Below, piece after piece: positions 6,814 to 32,853 of a stretch of DNA of 64,000 nucleotides (position 1 is the first letter of the stretch; each line of letters opens with the position of its first letter). The position numbers and the translations under genes were made by a program. The stretch comes from Pseudobutyrivibrio xylanivorans (GTDB lineage Bacteria; Bacillota; Clostridia; Lachnospirales; Lachnospiraceae). The notes beneath the pieces are model-generated. The model was not told where the DNA came from and did no database searches. It saw only the letters and a list, made by a program, of their open reading frames with translations. The stretch is from assembly GCF_008935055.1 (NCBI RefSeq), contig NZ_CP043028.1, positions 633,501 to 697,500 on the forward strand. The letters run 5' to 3'.

Positions 6814-6835
6814 TTTTTTGAAATTTAATAAACTG

Positions 6836-6915
6836 ATTCGCTAGGGGCGCATTTTGCTGAGAGGTTTATACCGACCCTTATCACTTGAACTGGATAATAC
6901 CAGCGTAAGGAAGCT
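6836..6915 (+). promoter_or_regulatory. TPP (thiamine pyrophosphate) riboswitch
   Basis: The conserved THI-box blocks are present in order: GGGGCGC, GCTGAGAGG, ACCCTTATCAC, TTGAACTGGATAATACCAG, CGTAAGGAAGC. It precedes thiT, the thiamine-specific ECF substrate-binding subunit, which is the expected target. Downstream, ATCTCC (6926-6931) can pair with GGAGAT (6949-6954) and would bury the ribosome-binding site of thiT, pointing to translational rather than transcriptional control. Confidence 0.95.
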
Positions 6916-6962
6916 ATTTTAGATGATCTCCTAGCATATTGTATGAAGGGAGATTTTTTATT

Positions 6963-11651: not shown

Positions 11652-11739
11652 AGCTTGTAACTGTCAAGCTCTTATATTTCTCAAGCGATGCTTTCTATGC
11701 AGAGCGGAGAAATCATAAAGCTTGACAGTGTAACAAGCT
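11652..11739 (-). terminator. Long capped hairpin, terminator of the nucleoside ABC operon (structured-element family A, copy 1)
   Basis: Stems: AGCTTGTAAC-TGTCAAGCT (11652-11670) pairs with 11719-11739 apart from a 2-nt bulge, and ATTTCTC (11676-11682) pairs with GAGAAAT (11707-11713). On the minus strand the structure is followed by a T-run, so it can terminate the permease transcript. The apex (CTCCGCTC, UGC, 7-nt loop, GCA, UCGCUUGAG on the minus strand) recurs at 21281-21311 with a compensated stem; see findings. Confidence 0.75.
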
Positions 11740-21128: not shown

Positions 21129-21164
21129 TTCCTATCCTCCTGTATTGGCTCGCTTGTTACGTTC

Positions 21165-21228
21165 ACAATCCTGAGATATTGCAACGCTTCGCATAGAAAG
21201 CTCCGCTTTTGCAACACTCAGAGATTGT
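21165..21228 (-). other. Structured intergenic element, family B copy 1 (upstream of deoC)
   Basis: Nested stems read on the plus strand: ACAATC/GATTGT (21165-21170 with 21223-21228), CTGAG/CTCAG, TTGCAA/TTGCAA, then a GC-closed apical hairpin. On the minus strand the internal loops are UG opposite UAU and AA opposite G, identical to those of the copy at 31801-31866, while the intervening stems differ but stay paired. It ends about 37 bp before the deoC ATG. Confidence 0.65.
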
Positions 21229-21254
21229 TTAACTACAAGCTATTTATACACTAA

Positions 21255-21339
21255 GCGTGTAGGCATCAAGCTATTATATTACTCAAGCGAAACATTTCAC
21301 GTTGAGCGGAGTAATATAATGCTTGTAGTCGTAACACGC
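21255..21339 (-). other. Structured intergenic element, family A copy 2 (after valS)
   Basis: The stem CAAGC-t-ATTATATTACTC (21267-21284) pairs with GAGTAATATAAT-GCTTG (21309-21325), with an outer GCGTGT/ACACGC (21255-21260 with 21334-21339). The apex repeats the arrangement of 11682-11707: fixed flanks CTCCGCTC and TCGCTTGAG (minus strand) around a 3-bp stem that differs (AAC/GUU here) and a 7-nt loop. The T-run expected of a terminator is absent. Confidence 0.65.
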
Positions 21340-30867: not shown

Positions 30868-31749
30868 CTAATCCTTTTGCCAATCTTTTTCTTTTCTTGT
30901 AAACATTCTAAACAGCTTCGTCTCAAGACGCTCTGCCCTTGTTACAAAGGATACTTGCGTATCGCGAACAGTTATTACAAAATGTCCACTGATTTCCTCA
31001 ATTCCCTGCTCAACATAATTCATTGTGCTTTCCTGCAAACTGCGGTGAGCAATAATATTATGCTTAAGCAAAAGATCGATTACATGTGTTTCTACCCCTG
31101 CATCCGCCACCTCGATAAAGGCCTCATCAATCTTCTTGTCAGCAATAAACTCCTCAAGCTTGTCAAGACCGATCAATGAATCGAAATGATCAATATAATC
31201 TGTAACACCCTCATTGTTCATAGCAACGCCAACAATCTCATAATCATTTTCAAAGGAACCTTTCAGAACACGCTTGATAACTTCCTGAGAATGATTAGAG
31301 TCACAGACAATAATAAGCTTTGGACAAAGTGCTGAATGAAAGCGACTAAAGCGAATAAAACATTTCAGAGCGCTTCTCTCCACAAGAAGGAACAAGTAGC
31401 AGAAAACAAATGCTGCTGCATATACACTTCGAGAGAAGTTCTGAGCTGATTTTACTAAGTATAGCGCGGCTGTAAAAAAAGCCCAGCTCACAAATACCTG
31501 CACAAGCAGGGCTTCACACTCCTTAAAGAAGCTTCGTTTGATAACCCCTGACAGATTCTTACTCAAAATTAAAATCAGAAGATATACGCCTGTCAATACA
31601 ACACCATAGTCAAAGAAAAGTTCACCATGGTGGACAGGTCTAAGCGCATATCTCAGCTGAACAACTAGAAAGTAACCTACAATCAGTGCCAACAAATCAC
31701 ATATAATAAAGTCTGCATGTTTCTTTAAATACAACAAAGTCTTTTTCAT
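30868..31749 (-). CDS. Truncated sugar-transferase paralogue (membrane plus nucleotide-binding domains only)
   Basis: 293 residues that correspond to the N-terminal part of polyprenyl-phosphate sugar transferases: about four membrane helices (LLALIVGYFLVVQLRY; YGVVLTGVYLLILILS; LVQVFVSWAFFTAALYLV; VYAAAFVFCYLFLLVE) and a cytoplasmic Rossmann-like domain (LIIVCDSNHSQEVIKRVL to ITVRDTQVS). It stops at the point where the full-length homologue at 33807-35228 enters its catalytic domain, ending instead in a short basic tail (RKEKDWQKD). With no catalytic domain it probably regulates or partners another transferase. ATG; it overlaps nothing upstream, and a family B structured element precedes it. 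Confidence 0.75.
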   Translation of the reverse strand: MKKTLLYLKKHADFIICDLLALIVGYFLVVQLRYALRPVHHGELFFDYGVVLTGVYLLILILSKNLSGVIKRSFFKECEALLVQVFVSWAFFTAALYLVKSAQNFSRSVYAAAFVFCYLFLLVERSALKCFIRFSRFHSALCPKLIIVCDSNHSQEVIKRVLKGSFENDYEIVGVAMNNEGVTDYIDHFDSLIGLDKLEEFIADKKIDEAFIEVADAGVETHVIDLLLKHNIIAHRSLQESTMNYVEQGIEEISGHFVITVRDTQVSFVTRAERLETKLFRMFTRKEKDWQKD

Positions 31750-31800
31750 ACTATTCTCCAGATTCTTAGTCTACAAACCTTATAGTCCGCATAAGTTACA

Positions 31801-31866
31801 CCTACAATCCTCAGATACTCTTCACCGGACTACATGTCCTTGTGAAGAGCACTGAGAGATTGTAGG
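31801..31866 (-). other. Structured intergenic element, family B copy 2
   Basis: Stems on the plus strand: CCTACAATC/GATTGTAGG (31801-31809 with 31858-31866), CTCAG/CTGAG, CTCTTCAC/GTGAAGAG, GGAC/GTCC with a short loop; an outer ATAAGT/ACTTAT extends it (31790-31795 with 31869-31874). Internal loops match copy 1 at 21165-21228. It sits upstream of the truncated paralogue gene (ATG at 31749). Confidence 0.65.
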
Positions 31867-31887
31867 CTACTTATACTCACTTAAATA

Positions 31888-32853
31888 TTAAACCCACAAT
31901 CTAAACCATAGGTTGTGACGGGCGCGCGAGAAGTTATTCTTCGCATAAAAACTCATGCGCTTTATTTTACCCTTCTCTCCAATTTTTGCAAATCTCATAA
32001 GCACATTTTTCTTGTCCTTAGGGAGCCAATCGGCTACGAGAAGTTCTGAAGCAAAGAGCCGGGATTCATTGACGAAAGCTCTCTTCTTCTCGAAAAAACT
32101 ACCACCTTTTATGTCCTCAAGATTGCGATTTGCTTTGTCACCATCAGATTCAGTGACTGCCCCCATTGTGTTGTGGCCAGTCTGTCTATAGTATACAAGA
32201 GGCGCATCGATTGGTACAACTTTTCCCATAATCGCCGCAATCTCAAGAATAAGCGCATCGTGCATCGGGATATTGTCCGAGTCAATCATCGGTGTGAGTG
32301 ATATAACCAAATCTCTCAGTCTTCGATTGAAGCACATTGTGCAGCCTGCTGCGGGATTATCAATGATAATCTGAGTGTATGCAATATTAGCTGGATTTCT
32401 TCCAATGTATCTGATGAATGAATCCGAAATCACATTAAGCTTATCATCCGTCACCATCATATCCGTAAATACACAAACAGGCAACACCTCTATACTTTCA
32501 AGCTTTGCGAGCTCATCCTCAGCTTCAACCATAGTTTCCATCGAGCGTTCTAGCTTTTCGGGAAACCATACATCATCCTGATCGCACATTAAATAATAAT
32601 CTGCCTCCACTCTATCAAGCATCCAAAGAAAATTCTCCTTGGCACCTCCGCAGGAGCCTCCGTAGAAAACCTCAATCCGCTCAGGATATTCCTCAAGATA
32701 TTCTTTTATTATTTCCGCAGTACCATCTGTTGACCCATCATCGTGGATAACTAGCCTAAAATCCTGTCTCGTTTGTTTAAAAAGGCTGTCTAGCTGCTGC
32801 CTTAAATATTCCCGTCCGTTATAGGTTGCAAGAAGTATCGCTATGTCTTTCAT
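31888..32853 (-). CDS. GT2 glycosyltransferase (rhamnosyltransferase-like)
   Basis: 321-residue inverting GT-A glycosyltransferase of family 2. The N-terminus (DIAILLATYNGREYLRQQLD) and the DDGSTDGT loop (~40) bind the nucleotide, and MCDQDDVWFPEKL (~95) holds the metal-binding DxD-like motif. This QDDVW form is typical of enzymes that add rhamnose or related sugars to cell-surface polysaccharides. Its ATG overlaps the stop of the upstream GT2 gene by one base (TAATG). No membrane helices. Confidence 0.88.
   Translation of the reverse strand: MKDIAILLATYNGREYLRQQLDSLFKQTRQDFRLVIHDDGSTDGTAEIIKEYLEEYPERIEVFYGGSCGGAKENFLWMLDRVEADYYLMCDQDDVWFPEKLERSMETMVEAEDELAKLESIEVLPVCVFTDMMVTDDKLNVISDSFIRYIGRNPANIAYTQIIIDNPAAGCTMCFNRRLRDLVISLTPMIDSDNIPMHDALILEIAAIMGKVVPIDAPLVYYRQTGHNTMGAVTESDGDKANRNLEDIKGGSFFEKKRAFVNESRLFASELLVADWLPKDKKNVLMRFAKIGEKGKIKRMSFYAKNNFSRARHNLWFRLWV

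Follow-up and report, generated by a model that had tools for sequence, protein, structure and literature searches.

Two hairpins lie on the minus strand of the window (the whole stretch of 64,000 nucleotides of Pseudobutyrivibrio xylanivorans DNA analysed here), at 21165-21228 and 31801-31866, and their sequence, coordinates and pairing are all as claimed in a preliminary description made from the sequence. An exact two-arm pattern matched the window twice, at these two hairpins, with no match expected from 100 shuffles. The first hairpin is situated 36 nt upstream of the ATG of deoC and the second 51-54 nt upstream of the ATG of a gene encoding a 293-aa protein, also in agreement with that description. 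Their extent had been drawn too narrowly, as each forms the inner part of a larger element with an outer helix (5 bp in copy 1 and 7 bp in copy 2) and two more internal loops; likewise, they are not the only copies in the window, which holds two further members on its plus strand. The elements and their neighbouring genes are the following (the place of each P and J segment in the fold is given below):

11652..11739, plus strand: copy 4, antisense, between two minus-strand genes; P1 AGCUUG/CAAGCU; 75.3 bits
20451..21128, minus strand: deoC (PF01791), downstream of copy 1
21149..21243, minus strand: copy 1, full element; J0 AUA/GAG, P1 GCUUG/CAAGC (5 bp), J1 GUAG...GUAA, core hairpin
21255..21339, plus strand: copy 3, antisense, between the valS stop and copy 1; P1 GCGUG/CACGC, J0 UAA/GUA; 77.0 bits
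21348..23996, minus strand: valS-type tRNA synthetase gene, upstream of copies 3 and 1
30868..31749, minus strand: gene for a CoA_binding_3 protein of 293 aa (PF13727 the sole Pfam match), downstream of copy 2
31786..31879, minus strand: copy 2, full element; J0 UGA/GGA, P1 GUAUAAG/CUUAUGC (7 bp), J1, core hairpin
31888..32853, minus strand: family 2 glycosyltransferase gene (PF00535), upstream of copy 2

Copies 3 and 1 are separated by 11 nt. On the minus strand, the two hairpins fold better than shuffled sequences (z -5.5 and -8.6, with 0 of 200 shuffles as good); the plus strands of the same segments also beat shuffles (z -3.4 and -9.5), so folding alone cannot choose the strand of the element. 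Rfam gave no match to the element at the gathering score, and the low-threshold matches at the copies were far below the gathering scores. The sole Rfam match in the window is a TPP riboswitch at 6833-6928 on the plus strand, just 5' of an ORF at 6939.

A covarying fold shared by the dispersed copies

The exact core has a third match in the genome, upstream of nrdR (gene identity by NCBIfam). A covariance model built from this sequence and the two window hairpins (R1) gave 80 genome matches at E values up to 10, of which 78 had E <0.01. Reading 55 copies together with their flanks revealed more conserved structure outside the originally noted hairpin, and the larger element was represented by a 35-sequence model (R2). 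According to R2, the genome holds at least 148 members, a lower bound since 150 of 1581 candidates were scored. Spaced stretches totalling 400 kb contain 15 copies in addition to the 4 in the window, a 20th, weak match in that sample being the opposite strand of the copy at 11.7 kb. For the analyses of structure and context, 124 matches were taken; six were dropped (five opposite-strand shadows and one cut-off duplicate), and the rest corresponded to 105 distinct places, of which 99 were classified for stem and T-run and 97 were used for the P1 and J0 counts. These two sets require GTA[AG]/GT[AG]A-like motifs, and loop invariance was therefore read from the 35-copy alignment instead.

The element is approximately 95-110 nt long and consists, from the outside in, of P0, J0, P1, J1 (5' UAR, 3' YGUAA), P2 with one mismatch, a bulged U, P3, and a variable apex. 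P0 is variable and AT-rich (by eye, UUUAAG/CUUGGA or UUAG/CUAA), and J1 is a nearly invariant UAR/YGUAA loop that includes the GTAG motif. Every letter of the GTA and GTAAC motifs is either invariant or 90% conserved among the 35 aligned copies, and the first and second GTAG letters each pair with GTAAC letters in 34 of 35. The first five positions of P1 form five pairs in 93 of 97 copies and four pairs in the other four, with 44 different 5-mers represented. The sixth position is A.G in 43 of these copies, paired in 48, and something else in 6, that is, unpaired in 49 of 97; the 43 A.G forms include UGA/GGA (20), AUA/GAG (4), and UAA/GUA (4). As for the two internal loops of the preliminary description, UG/UAU is mostly paired (U-A, G.U) with one bulged U, and by eye the AA/G loop is not general among the other copies.

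The dispersed copies share one covarying fold. In the 35-copy alignment, 94.9% of cells pair and both sides have changed in 18 of the 26 pairs; double-changed cells number 158, against a shuffled mean of 46.9 and 15-34 with slid partners, a statistic that on dispersed copies takes no account of kinship, same-site data being the better test of conservation. On the element strand, G.U outnumbers A.C by 61:8, falling to 11:8 after three fixed positions are left out, and this excess is therefore no proof that the element pairs as RNA. Separated by context in an alignment fitted to the model, the ratios were 106:17 for co-sense, 15:6 for antisense, and 17:5 for convergent copies.

Taxonomic range and genomic context

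R1, applied with strict filters, matched 27 of 29 Pseudobutyrivibrio genomes and none of 70 genomes of other genera. The two negative congeners (G006 and G020) are 86 and 83% complete; of the genomes with full-length matches, they are the two least identical to the window's genome in NrdR and PurN, and in DeoC they rank third lowest and lowest, respectively. A survey of 250 family genomes with R2, in which 14 candidates were scored per genome, gave matches in two, both Pseudobutyrivibrio, and in none of the 248 genomes of other genera, an outsider set that overlaps with the 70. Additionally, a 22-nt core pattern was found in 91 stretches among 84,980 species genomes, and all of the 80 listed belong to Pseudobutyrivibrio or to 'Butyrivibrio fibrisolvens 16/4'. 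Carriage by phages or plasmids was rejected, as the 22-nt pattern had no match in viral_contigs and one 131-nt copy had no blastn match in plasmids or phages. Among the titles and abstract openings searched, no description of the family was found, nor any of repetitive intergenic elements in Pseudobutyrivibrio, and the available part of PMC12306157 mentions neither Butyrivibrio, Lachnospir- nor RAYT.

The refuting conditions set in the preliminary description gave a mixed outcome, since many more copies were found and their placement is non-random, but part of them occur in either orientation, as would members of a repeat family. Of the 105 copies, mostly first found by R1 or near such copies and not a random sample, 63 lie in sense in co-directional gaps, 15 are antisense, 20 are in convergent gaps, 1 is in a divergent gap, 3 fall in a called gene (overlap >15 nt, with genes called by our own script), and 3 are undetermined. 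For comparison, a 464-kb sample (the window and 20 stretches) contains 168 spacers of at least 100 nt, 23 divergent and 8 convergent, a size class to which the element contributes by lengthening its own spacer. Where genes lie on the leading strand, as assigned from GC skew, the copies between them divide into 61 sense and 15 antisense, with a ratio of 2:0 for lagging-strand genes. Convergent copies comprise 9 leading and 11 lagging (Fisher p 0.0036 against 61:15), so the sense bias tracks transcription and not the replichore.

The form of the base also varies with context. Copies with the A.G loop are commoner in sense gaps (31/57) than in antisense and convergent ones taken together (10/35; p 0.018), and in sense gaps they lie a median of 26 nt before the next start, 87% of them within 60 nt; the corresponding figures for the long-stem copies of sense gaps (n=18) are 76.5 nt and 39%. 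At two loci (L217 and L218), the element has GCGGAGGAAAAT-ATG at its end and so supplies the ribosome site there. Long outer stems are present in 14 of 20 convergent copies, their excess outside sense gaps not being significant (Fisher p 0.079), and a run of at least three T follows the stem in 15 of the 99 classified copies.

The covariance-model search and the listing of downstream genes suggested in the preliminary description yielded many further members but no common pathway. Pfam families were assigned to 28 of 30 genes downstream of co-sense copies (30 of the 63 were tested, with deoC, the PF13727 gene, and, by NCBIfam, nrdR tested apart), and these are of many kinds, including purN, AIR carboxylase, uxuA, tatD, dnaJ, SMC_N, gpsA-type, pgk, and a LeuA-type synthase. 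No pathway is common to the 30 downstream proteins, deoC, the PF13727 gene, and nrdR, though these neighbours include two purine genes and two class II aldolases. Several of the gaps lie within gene pairs, namely purM-purN, gap-pgk, dnaK-dnaJ, and rnc-SMC_N. The copy between the RNase III gene and the SMC_N gene (L022, 1475-1595, plus strand) would be of note if RNase III cuts these hairpins.

Filled and empty sites and conservation at orthologous junctions

At orthologous junctions, the element is present in some congeners and absent from others. Read by eye, 27 valS-deoC gaps comprise 12 short ones without an element, 9 with the hairpin family (3 of which also hold a third kind of element), and 6 with another repeat. 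Among the 29 purM-purN loci, 13 contain an intact element and 9 show the stop/start overlap TAATG (L219, L221, L223, L230, L234, L235, L239, L240, L245); the remaining seven comprise a probable remnant or loss in L237 and L244, the other repeat in L238 and L241, and a short plain gap in L229, L236, and L243. Of 24 readable gap-pgk loci, 13 are filled and 11 lack the element. The cleanest filled/empty pairs (L210/L205, L189/L203, L264/L267, L249/L248) have inserts of 104-111 nt, for example 105 nt in L210 versus L205 and 107 nt in L189 versus L203 at valS-deoC, and other alignments give apparent inserts of 33-304 nt that are confounded by further differences. No consistent target-site duplication was seen in these alignments; by eye, one case (L162/L163) is compatible with a TA duplication. 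Judging from these sites, the family apparently moves between positions. Gain would be the likelier direction at sites whose empty form is a tight junction between genes, and two purN sites look like losses.

Copies also nest. At pgk, the apex of the L247 element holds a complete second copy, and L250 and L252 have the same outer part with a simple apex; nested copies are likewise present in L025, L026, and L028. A search of the genome for the type I scaffold without its core returned two matches, a fragment of a listed copy and a remnant of a 3' arm, suggesting that scaffold and core travel together; the insertion of cores into ready-made scaffold hairpins was rejected on the same grounds. 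Upstream of nrdR, the core-less L163 carries only P0-J0-P1. A miniature at the same site in L177 consists of P1-J1 closed by a short loop.

Other repeats occupy some of the same gaps in congeners. A second family, of the CCCTCATCAGTCACC...GGCGGATGAGGG type, was observed at valS-deoC (L191, L193, L197, L204, L211, L212) and at purM-purN (L238, L241). Its copy in L191 has the 5' leader AATTAAAGATAGC in common with the hairpin-family copies L189 and L210, as if one family had been replaced by the other. Three copies of the window's genome (C1:392014, 537796, and 1341768) carry the same long apical insert (TTTGTGGTCTAGTAAGC..GCTTACAT), to which a stretch within the second-family repeat of L241 is similar, suggesting an exchange of apical modules. 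A third element, of the CACAACCTAGGCAAGCGCGAGCAGG...GGGAGCACGGAG type and probably structured, is located upstream of deoC in L195, L199, and L207, with no Rfam match at the gathering score.

For a same-site comparison at the purM-purN junction, 13 rows were chosen by eye as all the intact copies, and all 13 were located by a regular expression with fixed P1/J1 letters. Across these genomes, P1+J1 shows identities of 1.00 and 0.90 and P2 of 0.92 and 0.88, whereas the values are 0.516 for the fourfold sites of purN, 0.574 for P3-apex, 0.57 and 0.47 for the flanks, and 0.43 for the 5' P0/J0. In all 13 copies, a C-G pair replaces G-C at the first GTAG letter, a change that is rare elsewhere (2 of 35, one of them the purM-purN site itself), which argues for descent and against re-insertion or homogenisation. 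The alignment has 42 double-changed cells compared with 13.6 when shuffled, and its covariation exceeds shuffles on four of five measures, with one at 6 of 500; further pair types were not above shuffles at this site (218 of 500). Four rows share a block-like apical replacement. The old insertion at purM-purN has kept its P1-J1-P2 base, which looks preserved by purifying selection, and selective retention is shown at this one site. The compensatory changes that the preliminary description took as a conserved fold are, in sum, strongly supported by dispersed copies and orthologous sites alike, with purifying selection seen at one of the latter. At gap-pgk, all 11 unnested copies pair 5/5 in P1 through four forms (GCTAG/CTAGC, GCTAG/CTGGC, GCTGG/CCAGC, GCCTG/CAGGC), a U.G intermediate included; this junction says less about rate because pgk fourfold identity is 0.82.

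A probable mobile hairpin family and its possible roles

We consider it probable that the two noted hairpins are members of a genus-specific, high-copy, non-autonomous mobile family, that is, a REP/ERIC-like intercistronic hairpin that has been retained either as a structured RNA ahead of ribosome sites or as a terminator. The family shares with ERIC/IRU, NEMIS, YPAL, and other MITEs, as described in the available part of PMC2229807, the character of an intergenic hairpin of ~100-200 bp, and with an ERIC-like MITE the occurrence of filled and empty orthologous sites. It differs from what that source describes in having no conserved terminal inverted repeat (its outer helices vary in sequence yet pair) and no consistent TA duplication, in its host genus, and in its two conserved internal loops. 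According to the same part of PMC2229807, ERIC has orientation-dependent effects, there is a link between NEMIS and RNase III, and YPAL targets lie in or beside dyad symmetry. A putative trans-acting recombinase would spread ~100 nt including P1 and its flanks, and an element inserted in an operon would be transcribed. In the leader form with the A.G loop, the hairpin would set the upstream reading frame apart from the ribosome site that follows, sometimes supplying that site, and by analogy with the ERIC and NEMIS hairpins, as far as PMC2229807 could be consulted, it might act as a processing or stability signal; the long-stem form may serve as a terminator.

A purely selfish DNA repeat, whose fold serves transposition as single-stranded DNA and which has no host function, is a possible but rather unlikely explanation. 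It would fit the high copy number, the filled and empty sites, the nesting, and the restriction to one genus, as well as the retention of the same loops in antisense and convergent copies and the failure of both folding and G.U counts to pick the strand. It does not fit the P1-J1-P2 identity of 0.88-1.00 at purM-purN against 0.47-0.57 at fourfold sites, flanks, and apex, the sense bias that tracks transcription, or the position of A.G-form copies of sense gaps, a median of 26 nt before starts.

A riboswitch or gene-specific regulatory leader, to which a covarying fold with nearly invariant internal loops just 5' of start codons might point, appears very unlikely, as the tested neighbours are of many kinds despite the two purine genes and the two class II aldolases, congeners differ in whether a site is filled, and Rfam gave no match. 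The leader specific to deoC and the sugar-transferase paralogue that the preliminary description had proposed is unsupported, since the family is dispersed genus-wide next to neighbours without an evident shared function, at sites that are filled or empty; a deoC riboswitch or gene-specific leader was rejected because the genes have no theme in common and because of these sites.

That the copies are true REPs moved by a RAYT tyrosine transposase seems highly improbable. As far as the available part of PMC3733652 describes them, REPs are 20-40 bp long, carry their GTAG unpaired at one of the ends, and have RAYT partners, and some sit inside longer palindromes; the GTAG motif, a bulged palindrome with complementary changes among members, and a high-copy, extragenic occurrence in unidirectional and convergent gaps, with some opposed pairs, are likenesses to our family. 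In contrast to the REPs of that source, the hairpin family is ~100 nt long, 3-5 times longer, its copies nest, its GTAG lies in an internal loop flanked by a covarying helix and not at an unpaired end, and no copy was found flanking the 18 Y1 genes examined. A PF01797 (Y1) match of any kind was present in 10 of 29 genus genomes. A RAYT over the NCBIfam cut-off was found in two (G009 and G028), leaving 27 without one, the window's genome among them, and a third genome had a sub-threshold match of 68.5 bits. The G009 gene (L069, 1243-1863, minus strand) scores 80.1 bits against a cut-off of 80 and has no hairpin element near it, and of three equal-scoring Y1 genes in the window's genome, the one tested is an IS200 (NF033573). 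At 18 Y1 loci, with ~1.5 kb on each side where the contig allowed, neither a strict regular expression nor the model found a hairpin element, and around two RAYT-like genes there was a single 13-nt palindrome and nothing else. With 2 of 29 genomes over the cut-off and no element at 18 Y1 loci, movement as a RAYT-mobilised REP was rejected. Equally improbable is a family of intrinsic terminators only, although some copies end in a long stem and a T-run (at least three T after the stem in 15/99; long outer stems in 14/20 convergent copies). Against it stand the 43/97 copies with an A.G mismatch right outside P1; about half of all copies combine the A.G loop with a short P1, those of sense gaps lying beside the next start, and many copies are within ~30 nt of a start. 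The long-stem excess outside sense gaps is, moreover, not significant.

Building on the mobile intercistronic family that we favour, one further-reaching proposal, which we hold to be unlikely, is that the domesticated hairpin forms a genus-wide post-transcriptional device, in which J0-P1-J1 would be the binding or cleavage site of one putative protein or RNase that sets mRNA processing or translation at >100 operon junctions, with transposition wiring new junctions and nesting stacking modules. Repeats of the REP and ERIC kinds are generally portrayed as palindromes whose ends are conserved; in this family, the stems vary freely with pairing kept, the copies nest and have a leader-like or terminator-like base, and one old insertion shows purifying selection. 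The family also carries a warning that covarying hairpin pairs 5' of genes can be repeat families and not riboswitches, and it offers a testable case of mobile hairpins turning into RNA parts of operons.
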